Below are positions 27,633 through 49,532 of a stretch of DNA of 64,000 bases, piece after piece. The notes under the pieces are model-generated. The model was not told the origin of the DNA. It did not search any database and was given only the letters and a program-made list of their open reading frames with translations. Both the position numbers and the translations under genes were made by a program. The stretch covers positions 4,688,501 through 4,752,500 of the forward strand of contig NZ_CP150919.1 of assembly GCF_039909015.1 (NCBI RefSeq). The letters run 5' to 3'. The DNA comes from Pseudomonas grandcourensis (GTDB lineage: Bacteria; Pseudomonadota; Gammaproteobacteria; Pseudomonadales; Pseudomonadaceae). The first letter of the stretch is position 1. Every line of letters begins with the position of its first letter.

Positions 27633-28241
27633 ATGAAACACGAAACTATCGAGAAAAACGTCGGCCTGTTGCTGCTGCTGATGATCCTGGCCGTGAGCAT
27701 CGGTGGCTTGACCCAGATCGTCCCGCTGTTCTTCCAGGACGTGACCAACAAACCGGTGGAAGGCATGAAGCCCTACACCGCACTGCAACTGGAAGGTCGC
27801 GATATCTATATCCGTGAAGGCTGCGTCGGCTGCCACTCGCAGATGATCCGCCCGTTCCGCGCCGAGACCGAGCGCTACGGGCACTACTCGGTGGCCGGCG
27901 AAAGCGTCTGGGATCACCCGTTCCTGTGGGGCTCGAAACGCACCGGGCCGGACCTGGCGCGGGTCGGCGCGCGCTACTCGGATGACTGGCACCGTGCGCA
28001 CTTGTACAACCCGCGCAACGTCGTGCCGGAGTCGAAGATGCCGGCCTACCCGTGGCTGGTGGCCAACCAACTCGACAGCAGTCATACCGAAACCAAGATC
28101 AAGGCCATGCGCACCCTGGGCGTGCCGTACACCGACGAAGACATCACCGGCGCCGTCGCCTCCCTCAAGGGCAAGAGCGAGATGGATGCACTGGTCGCCT
28201 ACCTGCAAGTGCTCGGCACTGCCATCAAGAGCAAGAGGTGA
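27633..28241 (+). CDS. ccoO2: Cytochrome cbb3 oxidase subunit II, mono-haem cytochrome c, second operon
   Basis: CcoO passes electrons from CcoP to the CcoN core. The 202-residue protein has an N-terminal membrane anchor ([17 protein letters not shown]) and one haem c site, CVGCH in [15 protein letters not shown]. The likely distal Met ligand is in [20 protein letters not shown] precedes the ATG. It lies between ccoN2 and ccoQ2 with gaps of 10 and 3 bases, so it is translated from the same transcript. Confidence 0.95.
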
Positions 28242-28244
28242 GCC

Positions 28245-28442
28245 ATGGTTGTTGAGATGAGCACTGGAATGATCCGTGGCTTAGGCACCGTCGTTGTCTT
28301 CATCGCCTTCGTCGGCCTGACCCTGTGGGTATTCAACAGCAAGCGCAGCCCGGAGTTCGCCGAAGCGCGCCTGCTGCCGTTCGCCGACGAGCCGCAACCC
28401 GACATCACTGAAGAACCAGCAACAAGGAGTACCCGGCCATGA
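28245..28442 (+). CDS. ccoQ2: Cytochrome cbb3 oxidase small subunit CcoQ, second operon
   Basis: The 65-residue protein has one membrane helix ([21 protein letters not shown]) and a short acidic cytoplasmic tail with the conserved LLPFADEP. It stabilises the oxidase and the CcoP association. The start at 28245 follows GAGGTGAGCC; an internal ATG four codons on (MSTGM) is an alternative. Its stop overlaps the ccoP2 start by four bases (ATGA), indicating translational coupling. Confidence 0.92.
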
Positions 28443-29392
28443 CCACCTTCTGGAGTACGTGGATCTGCGTACTGACCATCGGCAGCCTGATCGGCCTGAC
28501 CTGGCTGCTGATCGGCACCCGCAAGGGTGAAACCAAGGGCAGCGTCGACCAGACCATGGGCCACAGCTTCGACGGCATCGAGGAGTACGACAACCCGTTG
28601 CCGCAATGGTGGTTCATGCTGTTCGCCAGCACCCTGGTATTCGCCGTCGGCTACCTGATCCTCTATCCGGGCCTGGGCAACTGGAAAGGCATCCTCCCCG
28701 GCTACGAAAACGGCTGGACCGGCGTGCACGAATGGGAAAAGGAAATGGCCAAGGCTGACACGAAGTTCGGGCCGATCTTCGCCAGATTCGCGGCGATGCC
28801 CGTGGAAGAAGTGGCCAAGGACCCGCAAGCGCTGAAAATGGGCGGCCGCCTGTTCGCCTCCAATTGCTCGGTGTGCCACGGCTCGGACGCCAAGGGTGCC
28901 TACGGCTTCCCCAACCTGACCGACAGCGACTGGCGCTGGGGCGGCAACCCGGAAACCATCAAGACCACCCTCATGGGTGGCCGGATGGCGATGATGCCGG
29001 CCTGGGGTGAAGTCCTGGGGGAGGAAGGTGTGAAAAACGTCGCCGCTTATGTGCGCCATGATCTGGCCGGCCTGCCGTTGCCCGCCGACAGCAAAGCCGA
29101 CGTTCAAGCCGGACAGCAAGCCTTCAGCACCACCTGTGTCGCCTGCCATGGGGCTAACGGCCAGGGCACCGAAGCCATGGGCGCGCCGAACCTGACGCAC
29201 CCGGCCGGCTTCATTTACGGGACGAGCCTGACGCAGCTTGAACAGACGATTCGGCATGGCCGCCAGGGCCATATGCCGGCGCAGAACGAACTGCTCGGCA
29301 ATGACAAGGTGCAATTGCTGGCCGCGTATGTGTACAGCCTGTCCCACGGTTTGAATACCGAGCGCCTGCAGGCTGAAGACAACCGCAAATAA
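28439..29392 (+). CDS. ccoP2: Cytochrome cbb3 oxidase subunit III, di-haem cytochrome c, second operon
   Basis: CcoP is the entry point for electrons from soluble cytochromes. The 317-residue protein has two N-terminal membrane helices (about residues 8-25 and 58-80). Two cytochrome c domains follow with haem sites CSVCH and CVACH, and Met ligands in [10 protein letters not shown] and GRQGHMPAQ. Compared with CcoP1 it lacks a segment of about 14 residues between the second helix and the first haem domain ([13 protein letters not shown] here). It is the last gene of the operon. Confidence 0.95.
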
Positions 29393-29408
29393 ATCCCGAC
29401 CGCTCTGC

Positions 29409-29432
29409 TGCCGCATTCTCCCGGATGCGGCA
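29409..29432 (+). terminator. Possible terminator of the cco-2 operon
   Basis: Perfect arms TGCCGCAT/ATGCGGCA enclose an 8-base loop 17 bases after the ccoP2 stop codon. No T-run follows, so it may be a weak terminator or a 3'-end stabiliser. Confidence 0.5.
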
Positions 29433-29446
29433 GTTCCCTGCCCCTT

Positions 29447-29463
29447 TGCGACCCATTGTCGCA
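29447..29463. promoter_or_regulatory. Perfect dyad TGCGAC-N5-GTCGCA
   Basis: Six-base perfect inverted arms are separated by CCATT. The pattern GCGNC-N5-GNCGC resembles sites for RegA/RoxR-type redox response regulators, which are known to control cbb3 genes in pseudomonads. Binding here is an inference. Confidence 0.45.
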
Positions 29464-29637
29464 CCCTCGCACAGACTTTCTTTCGGATCACCGGATTCGG
29501 GTCTAAGCTTCCCCCGATGCGGACTGGCCGGTGCCGGTTCCAGGTCGACCCTGAACGATGTGTTCGACGAATCTGCCCGATGACAGGCCGCAAAGGCTGG
29601 TAGATACCGGCTGTCGCGCCAGTTGCCTTCGGTCAGC

Positions 29638-29652
29638 CAAACGTTGCGTTTG
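29638..29652. promoter_or_regulatory. Palindrome CAAACGTTGCGTTTG
   Basis: Perfect six-base arms flank TTG, a shape typical of TetR-family operators and close to the PsrA consensus (C/G)AAAC-N2-4-GTTT(G/C), but with a five-base gap. The regulator is not known. Confidence 0.4.
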
Positions 29653-29874
29653 AACACACCCCGTTACATCCGACCTGACCCCCTCGCCTGATCAGTCCGC
29701 CGGGACGTTTTGCCCGTGGGCAATTTTGTCCTTACGCGGTGCATGGAAAGGCCGCAGAATCAGCTTTTGAAAGCATTGACCCAGGTCATGGCGCGTTGCA
29801 ATGACCCCCTGCTTTCTCCATACTTGCGGCCGATTTTTAATCCTAATAAAACACCCAAACCGTGGAACCTTAGA

Positions 29875-31317
29875 ATGAGCACAGCAATCAGTCCGACTGC
29901 TTATAACTATAAGGTAGTCCGCCAGTTCGCCATCATGACGGTGGTCTGGGGGATCCTTGGCATGGGGCTCGGTGTCTTCATCGCCTCGCAACTGGTCTGG
30001 CCGGAGTTGAACTTCGGTCTGCCATGGACGAGCTTTGGACGCCTGCGCCCGCTGCACACCAACCTGGTGATTTTCGCCTTCGGTGGATGTGCACTGTTTG
30101 CCACTTCTTATTACGTCGTGCAGCGAACCTGCCAAACGCGACTGATTTCCGACAGCCTCGCCGCCTTCACCTTCTGGGGATGGCAAGCGGTGATCGTCGG
30201 CGCGATCATTACCTTGCCGATGGGTTTCACCACCACCAAGGAATACGCGGAACTGGAATGGCCCCTGGCTATTCTGCTGGCCATTGTCTGGGTCACCTAC
30301 GGTCTGGTGTTCTTCGGCACCATCGTCAAGCGCAAGACCAAGCACATCTATGTGGGTAACTGGTTCTACGGCGCGTTCATCGTCGTGACCGCGATGCTGC
30401 ACATCGTCAACCACATGTCGCTGCCGGTCAGCCTGTTCAAGTCCTACTCGGCCTACTCGGGTGCGACGGACGCGATGATCCAGTGGTGGTACGGCCACAA
30501 CGCCGTGGGCTTCTTCCTGACCACCGGTTTCCTGGGGATGATGTACTACTTCGTGCCGAAACAGGCCGAGCGTCCGATCTACTCCTATCGCCTGTCGATC
30601 GTGCATTTCTGGGCGCTGATCACCCTGTACATCTGGGCCGGTCCGCACCACCTGCACTACACCGCCTTGCCGGACTGGGCACAATCGCTGGGCATGGCAA
30701 TGTCGATCATCCTGCTGGCGCCAAGCTGGGGCGGCATGATCAACGGCATGATGACCCTGTCGGGCGCCTGGCATAAGCTGCGCACCGACCCGATCCTGCG
30801 CTTCCTGGTGGTCTCCCTGGCGTTCTACGGCATGTCGACCTTCGAAGGCCCGATGATGGCCATCAAGACCGTGAACTCCCTGTCGCACTACACCGACTGG
30901 ACCATCGGCCACGTACACGCCGGCGCTCTGGGCTGGGTGGCGATGATCTCGATCGGCGCGATCTACCACATGATCCCGAAACTGTTCGGCCGTGCGCAGA
31001 TGCACAGCACCGGCCTGATCAACACCCACTTCTGGCTCGCGACCATCGGTACCGTGCTCTACATCGCTTCGATGTGGGTCAACGGCATCACCCAGGGCCT
31101 GATGTGGCGTGCAATCAATGATGACGGCACCCTCACCTACTCCTTCGTCGAAGCGCTGCAAGCCAGCCACCCGGGCTTCATCGTCCGCGCCCTGGGCGGT
31201 GCATTCTTCGCCACCGGCATGCTGTTCATGGCCTACAACGTATTCCGTACCGTACGCGCCTCGAACCCGGCTGAAGCCAAAGCCGCCGAACAGATTGCCG
31301 TAGTTGGAGCTCACTGA
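29875..31317 (+). CDS. ccoN1: Cytochrome cbb3 oxidase subunit I, first operon
   Basis: The 480-residue catalytic subunit has twelve membrane helices and the same haem and CuB histidine motifs as ccoN2 ([42 protein letters not shown]). The upstream in-frame extension to 29710 has no family similarity, so I use the ATG at 29875 ([18 protein letters not shown]). The C terminus ([13 protein letters not shown]) differs from CcoN2. The stop codon overlaps the ccoO1 start by one base (TGATG). In P. aeruginosa this operon is the main oxidase expressed at all oxygen levels. Confidence 0.95.
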
Positions 31318-31925
31318 TGAAGCATGAAGCAGTCGAGAAGAATATTGGCCTGCTGGCCTTCTTCATGGTCATCGCCGTCAGCATCGGCGGCCTGACCCAG
31401 ATCGTTCCGCTGTTTTTCCAGGATGTCACCAACAAGCCGGTCGAGGGCATGAAGCCCCGCACCGCCCTTGAACTGGAAGGCCGGGACGTTTATATCGCCA
31501 ACGGTTGTGTCGGCTGCCACTCGCAGATGATCCGTCCGTTCCGTGCTGAAACCGAACGCTACGGCCACTACTCGGTCGCCGGTGAAAGCGTCTGGGACCA
31601 CCCGTTCCTGTGGGGTTCCAAGCGTACCGGTCCGGACCTGGCCCGCGTCGGCGGTCGTTACTCCGATGACTGGCAGCGTGCGCACTTGTACAACCCGCGC
31701 AACGTAGTGCCTGAGTCGAAAATGCCGGCCTACCCGTTCCTCGTGGAAAACAAGCTCGACGGCAAAGACACCGCCAAGAAAATGGAAGTCTTGCGCACGC
31801 TCGGCGTCCCTTACACCGACGAAGACATCGCCGGCGCCAAGGATGCTGTGAAGGGCAAAACCGAAATGGACGCGCTGGTGGCCTATCTGCAAGGCCTGGG
31901 CACCATCATCAAAAGCAAACGGTGA
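31317..31925 (+). CDS. ccoO1: Cytochrome cbb3 oxidase subunit II, mono-haem cytochrome c, first operon
   Basis: The 202-residue protein has an N-terminal membrane anchor ([16 protein letters not shown]) and one CVGCH haem site. It is the same length as CcoO2 and differs mainly around residues 145-180 ([17 protein letters not shown]). It starts inside the ccoN1 stop codon, which suggests coupled translation. Confidence 0.95.
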
Positions 31926-31930
31926 ATTAG

Positions 31931-32116
31931 ATGGATATCGGGATGATTCGTGGCCTGGGCACCGTTGTCGTGATGGTGGCCTTCATCGGACTGGCACTGT
32001 GGGTGTTCAGTCCCAAGCGCAAGTCGGAGTTTGAAGACGCGACCTTGCTGCCTTTCGCGGATGATCCCGAAGCCATCAAGCACGTCGAGCAAGCTTCTAG
32101 GAGTAACAAAGAATGA
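31931..32116 (+). CDS. ccoQ1: Cytochrome cbb3 oxidase small subunit CcoQ, first operon
   Basis: The 61-residue single-helix protein ([23 protein letters not shown]) has the conserved LLPFADDPE tail. It overlaps the ccoP1 start by four bases (ATGA), as in the second operon. No strong ribosome-binding site is seen, so it may be translated by coupling from ccoO1, which ends five bases upstream. Confidence 0.92.
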
Positions 32117-33090
32117 CTACATTCTGGAGTCTGTACGTCACAGTCCTCAGTCTCGGTACGATCTTTTCCCTGACCTGGCTGCTGCTGTCGACCCGCAAGG
32201 GCCAGCGCAGCGAACAGACAGACGAGACCGTCGGGCACTCCTTCGATGGCATCGAGGAGTACGACAACCCGCTGCCGAAATGGTGGTTCATGCTGTTCGT
32301 GGGCACCATCATCTTCGCACTGGGCTACCTGGCGCTGTACCCGGGCCTGGGTAACTGGAAAGGCCTGCTGCCGGGTTACGGCTACCTCGACAACGAGAAG
32401 CAGACCCCGTTCGCCAACGGCCAGACCGGCTGGACCGGCGTTCACGAGTGGGAAAAGGAAATGGCCAGGTCGGACGCCAAGTTCGGTCCGATCTTCGCCA
32501 AGTTCGCGGCCATGCCAATCGAAGAAGTGGCCAAGGACCCGCAAGCCCTGAAGATGGGTGGCCGCCTGTTCGCCTCCAACTGCTCGGTTTGCCACGGTTC
32601 CGACGCCAAGGGCGCCTACGGCTTCCCTAACCTGACCGACGCCGACTGGCGTTGGGGCGGCGAGCCGGCAACCATCAAGACCACCATCATGGGCGGCCGT
32701 CATGCGGTGATGCCTGCGTGGGCTGAAGTGATTGGCGAGCAAGGCGTGGCCGACGTGGCCGCGTTTGTCCTGACCAACCTCGATGGCCGCAAGCTGCCGG
32801 AAGGCGCCAAGGCCGACCCGGTTGCCGGGCAGAAACTGTTCGCAACCAACTGCGTGGCGTGCCACGGTCCGGAAGGCAAAGGCACCCCAGCGATGGGCGC
32901 ACCTAACCTGACCCACCCGGCAGCGTTCATCTACGGTTCGAGCTTCGCTCAACTGCAGCAGACCATCCGTTACGGCCGTCAGGGCCAGATGCCTGCGCAA
33001 GAGCAGCTGCAAGGTAACGACAAGGTTCACCTGCTGGCCGCTTACGTCTACAGCCTGTCTCACGGTGAGAAGGCAGCGGACGCCGAGTAA
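32113..33090 (+). CDS. ccoP1: Cytochrome cbb3 oxidase subunit III, di-haem cytochrome c, first operon
   Basis: The 325-residue di-haem subunit has two N-terminal helices and haem sites CSVCH and CVACH. CTAGGAGTAAC precedes the ATG. Its extra segment [17 protein letters not shown], before [13 protein letters not shown], is absent from CcoP2. It is the last gene of the cco-1 operon, and a strong terminator follows. Confidence 0.95.
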
Positions 33091-33110
33091 GGCAAACGCT
33101 TGAAGCAACA

Positions 33111-33148
33111 AAAACGGCCCCGCCAATGTGAATTTGCGGGGCCGTTTT
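33111..33148 (+). terminator. Terminator of the cco-1 operon
   Basis: The hairpin AAAACGGCCCCGC...GCGGGGCCGTTTT lies 20 bases after the ccoP1 stop codon. Confidence 0.93.
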
Positions 33149-33317
33149 CATTTAAAGCCTTGTCGGCCGCTTATTTGCTTACAGCAGTCTCGTTCATTCA
33201 ATATCACCTCATCAGCACCCACTGCCCTTTTGGCAACTTGCGCTATTACAACAAAAAAACACTCACAGACCAGAAAAATGAAAACCCACCAAACAAATAA
33301 ACACAACCAATGCAAAT

Positions 33318-33356
33318 AAAAAAACGGCCCCACCAGTTCTCATGGCGAAGCCGTTT
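33318..33356 (-). terminator. Terminator of the orphan small gene
   Basis: Read on the minus strand, AAACGGCTTC...GGGGCCGTTT forms an imperfect hairpin followed by TTTTATTT. It lies about 50 bases after the stop codon at 33405. Confidence 0.75.
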
Positions 33357-33404
33357 ATTCAGGTATTCATGATTGCACTTTGCGTTCATGAACATGAACT
33401 GCAA

Positions 33405-33620
33405 TCAAGGAAGATTACCGCCACCCAGACTATCCATACCACCGCTTCGTATTTTGTCTGTAGAGCGTTTCGTGCGAGCGCCTTGCACCGTAGGCACAGC
33501 AGTTTCCACGGTCATGGTCGGCCCAGGAATCGTGCAGTCTGTATCAGGCGTCTGACCGGCTGCAGTTGCTGGCATATCAGGCTGAATTTCTTGAGCGTCA
33601 GTTTCATTTTTATTAGACAT
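33405..33620 (-). CDS. Orphan small protein of unknown function
   Basis: The ATG at 33620 is preceded by AAGGAG nine bases upstream, and the frame of 71 codons ends before its own terminator, so I consider it a real gene. The product is hydrophilic. It has an acidic N-terminal half (MSNKNETDAQEIQPDMP), a Pro/Thr/Val-rich middle (CTIPGPTMTVETAVPTV), a basic stretch (ARTKRSTDKIRS) and a Gly-rich end GGMDSLGGGNLP. It has one Cys, no signal peptide and no membrane segment. A possible -10 GATAAT lies about 30 bases upstream. The leader-plus-Gly-rich-tail shape recalls modified-peptide precursors, but no modification or export gene is nearby. I do not recognise the family. Confidence 0.65.
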   Translation of the reverse strand: MSNKNETDAQEIQPDMPATAAGQTPDTDCTIPGPTMTVETAVPTVQGARTKRSTDKIRSGGMDSLGGGNLP

Positions 33621-33792
33621 CTTCAACTTCTCCTTAAGTAGATTTTTTATTATCCGACTTGCAATACTGCGACTTAACTTAATTACTGCCGCACAGCCAA
33701 CATAGGCAATTCAATACTAAAGATCCATCCACCATTAATCTCAAAGTATTACGCAAGTTAAAAGCACTTGTTCTTTACCCAGCAGACTTTGG

Positions 33793-33900
33793 CTAACCCG
33801 TCAACCAAAGTACCCGTCGAGGATCGACGAAGAAAAAGGGTAAATCGTCTATAGTCAATTGACCTGCATCATGTTTTGTTACATCTGCTACACCATTCAT
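33793..33900 (-). CDS. Possible 35-residue peptide or gene remnant
   Basis: The ATG at 33900 has GGGGA eight bases upstream and opens MNGVADVTKHDAGQLTIDDL, ending RRVLWLTG. Codon use is AT-rich, unlike the neighbouring cco genes. The frame is open further upstream to 34095, so this may instead be the tail of a decayed longer gene. It is on the same strand as the orphan gene 172 bases downstream and could be co-transcribed. No family is recognised. Confidence 0.3.
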   Translation of the reverse strand: MNGVADVTKHDAGQLTIDDLPFFFVDPRRVLWLTG

Positions 33901-34039
33901 GATTTTTCCCCAACGCGACCAAAGGTCGCACCCGCAGGCTAGAGCGACAGGCGTATCATTGCGCCACTGCAACACCTCTTTTTGACCGCGGTCGGCACGT
34001 ACTGACCGAGGCATTTTTCCACTGCCGTGGGATGCAATG

Positions 34040-35455
34040 ATGAGCAACCAGATTCCGGTACACGACGTCACTCCGCCCACCAAGAACGCGAACAACAGCG
34101 TCGACCTCTACGCCTCCAGGGAAAAAATCTACACCCGCGCCTTCACCGGCCTGTTTCGCAACCTGCGGATGACCGGCGGTGCCCTGTTGTTCCTGCTGTA
34201 TTTCGGCACGGTGTGGCTGAACTGGGGCGGTCATCAGGCCGTGTGGTGGAACGTGCCGGAGCGCAAGTTCTTCATTTTCGGCGCCACCTTCTGGCCTCAG
34301 GATTTCATTCTGCTGTCCGGCATGTTGATCATCGCCGCCTTCGGCCTGTTCTTCATCACCGTGTACGCCGGACGGGTCTGGTGCGGCTATACCTGCCCGC
34401 AAAGCGTCTGGACCTGGATCTTCATGTGGTGCGAAAAAGTCACTGAGGGTGACCGCAACCAACGCATCAAGCTCGACAAGGCGCCGATGAGCACCAACAA
34501 GCTCCTGCGCAAGTTCAGCAAACACAGCCTGTGGCTGCTGATCGGCTTCGTCACCGGCATGACCTTCGTCGGCTACTTCTCGCCGATCCGCGAACTGGTG
34601 TTCGACTTCTTCACCGGCCAGGCAGATGGCTGGTCGTACTTTTGGGTCGGTTTCTTCACCCTCGCCACTTACGGCAACGCCGGCTGGTTGCGCGAACAGG
34701 TGTGCATCTACATGTGCCCGTACGCACGCTTCCAGAGCGTGATGTTCGACAAGGACACCCTGATCGTTTCCTACGACCCGCGCCGTGGCGAAGGCCGTGG
34801 CCCGCGTAAAAAAGGCATCGACTACAAGGCCCAGGGCCTGGGCGACTGCATCGACTGCACCATGTGCGTCCAGGTTTGCCCGACCGGCATCGACATCCGC
34901 GACGGCCTGCAAATCGAATGCATCGGTTGCGCCGCCTGCATCGATGCCTGCGACGCCATCATGGACAAGATGGAATACCCGCGCGGGCTGATCAGCTACA
35001 CCACCGAGCACAACCTGTCCGGGCAGAAAACCCATAAACTGCGTCCGCGCCTGATTGGCTATGCCATCGTGCTGCTGGCGATGATCAGCCTGCTGGTGAC
35101 GGCGTTCTTCATGCGTGCGCTGGTGGGGTTCGATGTCAGCAAGGACCGCGTGCTGTACCGCGAGAACGCCGAAGGCCGGATCGAAAACGTCTACAGCCTG
35201 AAAATCATGAACAAGGACCAGCGCGACCATACCTACCTGCTCGACGCCTCCGGCCTGCCGGATCTCAAATTGCAGGGTCGACGCGAGATCAAGGTCGCGG
35301 CCGGCGACATCGTCAGCCAGCCTGTCGAACTGTCCGTCGCACCGGAAAAACTGCCGTCGAGCACCAACGAGGTGAAATTCATCCTCAAGGACGCCGATGA
35401 CGAAAGCGTCCACATTGAAGCCAAGAGCCGGTTCATCGGCCCACAGAATCGTTGA
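34040..35455 (+). CDS. ccoG: CcoG/FixG, ferredoxin-like cbb3 assembly protein
   Basis: CcoG is a membrane iron-sulfur protein that reduces Cu(II) during cbb3 maturation. The 471-residue protein has about five membrane helices (GALLFLLYFGTVW, FILLSGMLIIAAFGLFF, LWLLIGFVTGMTFVGYF and others). Two ferredoxin-type cysteine clusters lie at CIDCTMCVQVCP and CIGCAACIDACD. Extra Cys motifs GYTCPQSVW and YMCPYARF precede them. A C-terminal periplasmic Ig-like domain follows. Tandem ATGs lie at 34037 and 34040; the second is better spaced from GGGA. It is followed at 11 bases by ccoH and heads the assembly operon. Confidence 0.94.
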   Translation: MSNQIPVHDVTPPTKNANNSVDLYASREKIYTRAFTGLFRNLRMTGGALLFLLYFGTVWLNWGGHQAVWWNVPERKFFIFGATFWPQDFILLSGMLIIAAFGLFFITVYAGRVWCGYTCPQSVWTWIFMWCEKVTEGDRNQRIKLDKAPMSTNKLLRKFSKHSLWLLIGFVTGMTFVGYFSPIRELVFDFFTGQADGWSYFWVGFFTLATYGNAGWLREQVCIYMCPYARFQSVMFDKDTLIVSYDPRRGEGRGPRKKGIDYKAQGLGDCIDCTMCVQVCPTGIDIRDGLQIECIGCAACIDACDAIMDKMEYPRGLISYTTEHNLSGQKTHKLRPRLIGYAIVLLAMISLLVTAFFMRALVGFDVSKDRVLYRENAEGRIENVYSLKIMNKDQRDHTYLLDASGLPDLKLQGRREIKVAAGDIVSQPVELSVAPEKLPSSTNEVKFILKDADDESVHIEAKSRFIGPQNR

Positions 35456-49419: not shown

Positions 49420-49532
49420 GGTGGTAACCCCACCAGCCACACCCCGGCACACAATGTTCCCGCTGTGGCTGCTTCCTTCCGGATCTGACCAGGTTCACGG
49501 GTAATCGTTGCGGGGGGACCGATGGGGTCACC
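49420..49532 (-). ncRNA. ffs: Signal recognition particle 4.5S RNA
   Basis: The minus strand carries the invariant SRP domain IV: GGTCAGATCCGGAAGGAAGC followed by AGCC, giving the GGAA tetraloop and the asymmetric loop bound by Ffh. The ends GGTGACCCC and GGGGTTACCACC pair over the length of the molecule to form the long hairpin of bacterial 4.5S RNA. Mature ends are approximate. The Ffh-4.5S particle targets ribosomes making membrane proteins to FtsY. A promoter and a terminator flank it. Confidence 0.95.

Follow-up and report, generated by a model that had tools for sequence, protein, structure and literature searches.

A small-protein gene in the genome of Pseudomonas grandcourensis belongs to a recurrent Pseudomonas gene family, which is defined by a 12-residue C-terminal tail and a 54-nt promoter element and to which full-length homology search is nearly blind. 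The gene lies in the spacer between ccoP1 and ccoG, within the 64,000-nucleotide stretch of DNA that was analyzed here (the window). From the genomes compared, we regard it as almost certain that this is a real, translated family. It appears to be undescribed and is so far seen in Pseudomonas only.

The small gene and its relatives

The frame comprises 71 codons and was taken from the list of open reading frames (33405-33620, minus strand; ATG at 33620, stop codon at 33405-33407); relatives carry family members. A Shine-Dalgarno sequence, AAGGAG, is located 9 nt before the ATG (33630-33635, minus strand). Downstream follows an intrinsic terminator-like site (33322-33356, minus strand) with 14 pairs, seven of them GC, and then a T run; the terminator scan found four such sites against 1.8 expected. 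Scanning for a sigma70 consensus promoter revealed none. The product is made up of a variable N-terminal part and a conserved tail. It is hydrophilic (GRAVY -0.73, pI 4.5), with an acidic N-terminal end and a basic stretch before the tail. AlphaFold, run on the window protein with a 20-row alignment, gave no secondary structure, a mean pLDDT of 64.8 and a pTM of 0.15, a weak hint that the protein may be disordered.

A sequence-only reading of the window had proposed a small-protein gene, so far undescribed, that has a ribosome-binding site and a terminator of its own and matches no known family. The signals are present as described, and the absence of family matches supports the proposal: the window protein had no match in Pfam, NCBIfam or PHROGs, and the family profile had none among PDB sequences. 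Likewise, 20 family members gave no Pfam or PHROGs match, and five further members no NCBIfam match. One of the 20 members was matched by PADLOC at E 0.011, which we read as chance. The open-licence papers searched yielded no description of a small-gene family at ccoP-ccoG.

A full-length search of 57 genomes detected nothing significant beyond the gene's own genome, and none was found in GTDB contigs, plasmids or phages. Among 398 Pseudomonas genomes, 26 matched at E<=0.05, the own genome included, and three of these matches were placed individually (G318, G273 and G303). The weak matches in G318 and G273 share a C-terminal G(L/M)DSLGGG with the window, and the family was recognised because both fell in the same ccoP-ccoG spacer. 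The weak match in G303 is a member at a second site, directly upstream of a gene for a PhoD-like phosphatase (phoD).

We then defined a DNA pattern from the tail and the stop codon and ran it on one genome per species (84,980 species). It returned 31 loci, all in Pseudomonas, with 29 in the ccoP-ccoG spacer and two at the phoD site. The gene had earlier been called an orphan; undescribed it is, but with 31 pattern loci it is not a single orphan. Since the pattern imposed the GGG of the tail, which is replaced in some phoD-site members, 31 loci are an undercount. The encoded proteins are mostly 57-87 aa long and hydrophilic (locus L135 is cut at its edge and its protein length is incomplete), and an SD-like site before an in-frame ATG was flagged in 27 of the 31. 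Many of the sequences are too closely related to count as independent, especially L109, L112-L116, L122, L124, L126, L133 and L135. Viral contigs gave no match to the tail pattern.

A profile of 36 positions, covering the C-terminal part of the family, was compared with 298 Pseudomonas genomes; 45 matched at E<0.01, a number that includes rows of the profile. The window tail, itself a profile row, scored E 7.0e-8. Among the best 30 profile loci, 23 were located at cco and seven at phoD. Across the order, two of 194 genomes matched the tail profile at E<=0.01; both were Pseudomonas, the sole genus of 96.

The conserved tail and the shared promoter

The family tail has the consensus GG(L/I/M)D(S/G/T)LGGG(R/N)L. 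The window protein ends in GGMDSLGGGNLP, in agreement with the family pattern GG(L/I/M)D(S/G/T)LGGGxL or a close variant of it. In ubiquitin-like and Pup tags a ligase uses a C-terminal GG; in the small protein the GGG stands three residues before the protein end. Loci selected by the pattern share G, D, L and GGG; members found by the profile also have GRG, GKG and GQG. In the nine phoD-site genomes, mostly found by the profile, the tail reads LGGG in four and LG(R/K/Q)G in five, and at loci L163, L164, L168, L170 and L193 it is LGRG, LGKG or LGQG that replaces LGGG.

The invariance of the tail is partly imposed by the search pattern, and only the full-length matches and the promoter-based finds escape this bias in part. 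The pattern did not dictate the synonymous variation. In the window the codons of the 12-residue tail occupy 33408-33443 (minus strand). Among the 31 loci their counterparts vary synonymously, and a single position may use as many as five synonymous codons. Ten related 57-aa members differed in the tail by 154 synonymous versus 25 nonsynonymous codon changes, and in the N-terminal part by 272 synonymous versus 947 nonsynonymous changes. Between the window and P. jessenii, dN and dS were 0.04 and 0.11 for the tail, 0.49 and 0.54 for the N-terminal part, and 0.010 and 0.108 for ccoG, which is 97% identical in DNA. In close pairs the N-terminal dN exceeded that of ccoG throughout, one identical pair excepted. 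The loci L118 and L128 have unrelated N-terminal parts and ccoG genes that are 97% identical, and across the family the N-terminal part varies beyond alignment. The tail can change as well (dN 0.20 for L121 versus L130). Judged by these codon differences, the tail is held at the protein level, and the N-terminal part seems to have been diversified or exchanged, the tail being mostly retained. To our knowledge, such a combination of a slowly evolving tail and an N-terminal part that diverges freely is unusual for bacterial small proteins.

At locus L125 (P. fuscovaginae SE-1, about 2504-2557) we observed a member of 17 codons, MREGHGGLDSLGGGRLL, with a strong SD and a nearly bare tail. It bears on the idea of a polymorphic payload, in which the variable N-terminal part would be an effector or specificity region and the tail a shared targeting or export signal. 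The N-terminal part evolves much more rapidly than ccoG and can be exchanged completely between strains, as in L118 versus L128, which agrees with such a payload. However, the 17-codon member has none, no domain was found in the 20 members scanned and no structure is predicted. We consider this reading unlikely.

The same short member, almost only tail, rather favors a peptide precursor. Here the N-terminal part would be a discarded propeptide, and the C-terminal 12-mer would be freed at the basic stretch as an active signal or a modified peptide. The constraint on the tail fits this as well, and so does the basic stretch that in many members precedes the conserved C-terminal end. Against it, neither a signal sequence nor a conserved cleavage residue was seen, and no transporter, protease or modifying enzyme was recognised among the ORFs listed at both sites, some of which were family-scanned. 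In addition, the tail serine is replaced by Gly or Thr in 12 of 31 loci. A precursor of this kind is doubtful, if somewhat less so than a payload. The small protein resembles bacterial peptide-pheromone and RiPP precursors, which are short products with one part conserved and the other free. It differs from them in that its conserved part is C-terminal and that no leader, transporter or maturase was recognised nearby.

Three further classes were compared with the tail. The RTX nonapeptide repeat has the motif G-x-D-x-L-x-G-G, and type I secreted proteins carry tandem GGxGxDxLx repeats. The window tail has G, D, L, G and G on RTX spacing, but it makes up only one half-turn without repeats, and one spacing glycine is replaced in some phoD-site members. 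With a single half-turn and no Pfam match it was not classed as an RTX or type I secreted protein. Phosphopantetheine carriers have a DSL motif with an invariant serine; this class was rejected, since the residue after the tail aspartate is Ser in 19, Gly in 11 and Thr in one of the 31 loci. Lasso peptides have Asp or Glu at core position 7-9 and maturation genes nearby. They were rejected as well, because in a core counted from the tail GG the only acid is Asp 4, and because no maturation genes were recognised at the cco or the phoD site.

Upstream of the gene lies the second element that defines the family (33699-33752, minus strand). In the window it consists of an operator-like block (33732-33751), a -35-like TGGATC (33722-33727) and a -10-like TATGTT (33699-33704). 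In the family the element runs TTCATAnnTTGAAACnnATnnTCGATAGAC and continues to a -10-like TAnnnT, which stands 17 nt after the -35-like T(A/G)GAC, and the window, a training member, has this arrangement; the model matched it at 33707-33751 with E 0.00018, the window being in the training set. A motif search on 31 upstream regions reached a log-likelihood of 433, compared to 103-118 in six shuffled sets (plain, not dinucleotide, shuffles with 8 starts versus 25 for the real set). From the 31 regions searched, 28 were laid out and 27 aligned: L117, L125 and L128 were excluded by eye as showing no convincing element, and L119 was excluded from the alignment. The 27 aligned regions have eight invariant columns, and one row carries a 1-nt insertion.

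A matrix was built from 25 cco-site promoters. It had its top score upstream of the small gene in all five other cco loci (L061, L063, L065, L066 and L072, of which L063 and L072 carry damaged copies and L072 also closely resembles a training sequence). The same cco-trained matrix had its top score 112-136 nt before the ATG in six of the nine phoD-site genomes; G160, L134 and G161 gave no upstream top match. A cargo-free site scored below zero, and no promoter match was obtained in 15 spacers that lacked the gene, contained only other cargo or carried a damaged copy. In 199 Pseudomonas genomes, under stricter filters, we detected 19 promoter matches at E<=0.05, several of them in species that are also in the training set. 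Eighteen are located upstream of a small-gene tail match (in G126 the tail match reaches only E 0.057), and the remaining one, in G080, is upstream of phoD. The window's own genome contains one real promoter site, the next best having E 0.41; with no second site above chance, neither a regulon nor a regulator could be named.

Most examined members, at both sites and in both orientations, share a sigma70-like promoter with an operator-like block. The weak -35 and the conserved block just upstream of it suggest an activator, and we give activator dependence even standing with its alternative.

The sequence-only reading had offered conservation of the frame as a check, and this came out in its favor: related genes occur across many Pseudomonas species, their tail codons change synonymously and the promoter is conserved. 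Small-gene copies are frameshifted or truncated in L063, L072 and L075, and the copy in L077 looks damaged. As some relatives carry broken copies, the gene appears to be dispensable. Such copies, together with the almost complete lack of detectable homology in the full-length search, are what one would see with a chance ORF or a decaying, functionless remnant. This is nevertheless barely credible, given the codon constraint on the tail, the SD, the promoter with near-fixed spacing and the recurrence in many species and at two sites.

Insertion sites and their cargo

In the window, the left flanking gene is ccoP1 (32113-33090, plus strand) and the right one ccoG (34037-35455, plus strand); both are from the ORF list, and the 3' end of the former and the 5' end of the latter were matched in relatives. 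Two tandem cco clusters precede the spacer (27633-33090; two ccoO, ccoQ and ccoP frames by our reading of the ORF list). A bacterial small SRP RNA is found elsewhere in the window (49428-49524, minus strand; Rfam RF00169). The drop in GC that had been noted for the spacer was measured, from about 0.60-0.66 in the flanks to 0.41-0.48. With 0.449 over the whole gap, it is the lowest of eight window gaps of >=250 bp between long ORFs, the next having 0.450 and the others 0.466-0.566. This is spacer-like AT-richness and not by itself proof of foreign DNA.

The left border of the insert is a terminator-like hairpin 3' of ccoP1 (33110-33148, plus strand), which is present in filled and cargo-free spacers of relatives. 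At the right border, before ccoG, stands TTGACCTGCATCAT (33859-33872, plus strand), a candidate Anr box. This candidate box is kept in the spacers of P. jessenii and P. putida 17522, and the block around it in the nearest relatives; cargo-free spacers of other species retain the ccoP hairpin and a related block before ccoG. The gene had been said to split the cbb3 locus. It is indeed inserted between ccoP1 and ccoG, but it need not split an operon, because ccoP1 has its own terminator-like hairpin and a conserved block precedes ccoG. An insert that follows the ccoP terminator and precedes the conserved leader of ccoG therefore need not disturb either.

A ccoP-ccoG query matched with at least one piece in 390 of 398 genomes. 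The span between the matched ends ranged from 68 bp to 3.4 kb in the 16 relatives with both ends among the matches listed. Spacers of 20 relatives were taken from the best DNA matches, not at random. Over all spacers compared, the cargo was the small gene, a secreted metallophosphoesterase (PF00149 by Pfam in the one copy tested), a Phd/YefM-PIN toxin-antitoxin pair or several of these together; other spacers were empty. The toxin-antitoxin pair recurs in L065, L066, L090, L109, L111-L116 and others, many of which also carry the metallophosphoesterase. Within a reach of 8 kb, 11 of the 29 cco-site family loci have both enzyme and PIN, five the enzyme only, one PIN only and 12 neither. The genome G298, labelled as the same species, has a metallophosphoesterase instead of the small gene, 47% identical to the Pfam-tested one, between flanks of 98% and 96% identity. 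An otherwise cargo-free spacer in G262 (L224) has a long inverted repeat that resembles a Pseudomonas REP element.

In G156 (L068, 344-3961) we found a tandem partial duplication of ccoP-metallophosphoesterase-ccoG, in which a truncated ccoG copy, 81% identical, abuts a second ccoP end. Entry of cargo through recombination between flanking sequences would be expected to leave such a partial copy. The comparison of loci shows two apparent insertion sites and a variable cargo, and ccoP-ccoG is very probably an exchangeable, permissive slot. Hotspots for accessory genes between core genes are a known phenomenon, and the slot resembles them in its conserved flanks and in a variable cargo that includes a toxin-antitoxin pair. 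Unlike general hotspots, it is bounded by the ccoP terminator on one side and the ccoG promoter on the other, and a single microprotein family, which has a promoter of its own, recurs in it.

The position of the small gene directly upstream of phoD at the second site, and a metallophosphoesterase in 16 of the 29 cco-site family loci, could indicate a partner or regulator of a phosphoesterase, either the PhoD-like or the secreted enzyme. We hold this to be quite improbable. The metallophosphoesterase was not seen at 13 of the 29 loci, some of which are cut short, and several spacers contain it without the small gene. Moreover, phoD is general (29 of 30 chosen genomes), and 27 of the 29 phoD loci lack the cassette promoter. 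In G080 (L191/L194) this promoter is immediately upstream of phoD and the small gene is missing, an apparent remnant. A shared phosphoesterase operon was rejected on the generality of phoD and on this gene-free promoter, and we read the phoD site as a putative second insertion site.

A link of the small gene to low-oxygen respiration and an antisense action had also been suggested earlier; neither was sustained. At the cco site, 26 of 29 pattern loci have the gene on the same strand as ccoG and three have it on the opposite strand, as in the window, where the frame overlaps neither ccoP nor ccoG; an antisense role is not supported by these strands. With one mismatch allowed, an Anr-type box occurs upstream in 3 of 31 members, compared to 0.68 in shuffles. 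Two of these boxes lie at the distal edge of the region, and the third is on the ccoG side of a reversed member. Given these few boxes and their positions, Anr control is not general, and it was not supported as an explanation. Since the strand varies, a second site exists and a genome labelled as the same species lacks the gene and carries other cargo, a cbb3-specific or antisense role is unlikely.

An accessory factor for the cbb3 oxidase, for CcoG or for their regulation, antisense control included, has in its favor that 29 of 31 pattern loci are located between ccoP and ccoG. It is very improbable on the same grounds, and the hydrophilic product is not a CcoM-like membrane subunit. CcoM belongs to the cbb3 oxidase and spans the membrane. 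In Pseudomonas stutzeri, it is a 36-aa subunit (PMC10433244). The window protein is likewise a small protein associated with Pseudomonas cbb3 genes, but it has 71 aa, is acidic and, with its GRAVY of -0.73, is not the short hydrophobic membrane-spanning protein that a CcoM-like subunit would be. Its genomic site and strand vary as well.

A cassette with a putative docking tail

Our best explanation, held with middling confidence, is that the window carries one allele of an accessory Pseudomonas cassette in a neutral cco slot, encoding a disordered protein that would act via its tail. The cassette would consist of its own promoter, SD, short-protein gene and terminator, and would occupy the neutral slot that the ccoP terminator and the ccoG promoter enclose. 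Strains may swap it, and homologous recombination in the cco genes on either side would be the simplest route. An activator would bind the block upstream of the weak -35, and the protein would be produced. The protein would be unfolded and act through its C-terminal tail as a short linear motif, which might dock on a conserved host protein and leave the N-terminal part free to diversify. Docking by the tail is possible, though we would put it below an even chance. The most economical reading, and our best guess, is a disordered accessory microprotein that acts via its tail on a conserved partner. A slow tail together with a freely diverging N-terminal part points to such a binding partner.

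For the biology of Pseudomonas, the exchange slot means that variation between ccoP and ccoG should not be taken for a difference in respiration. More tentatively, and with less confidence than for docking, the cassette might belong to a peptide system. The conserved 12-residue tail would then be what is active, or what is recognised, in a polymorphic microprotein. Its promoter would be under activator control, its cassette would be exchanged between strains at the core-genome slot, and a conserved but unlinked receptor or processing partner would be encoded in the chromosome. If true, this would be a previously unknown peptide-based system in Pseudomonas.
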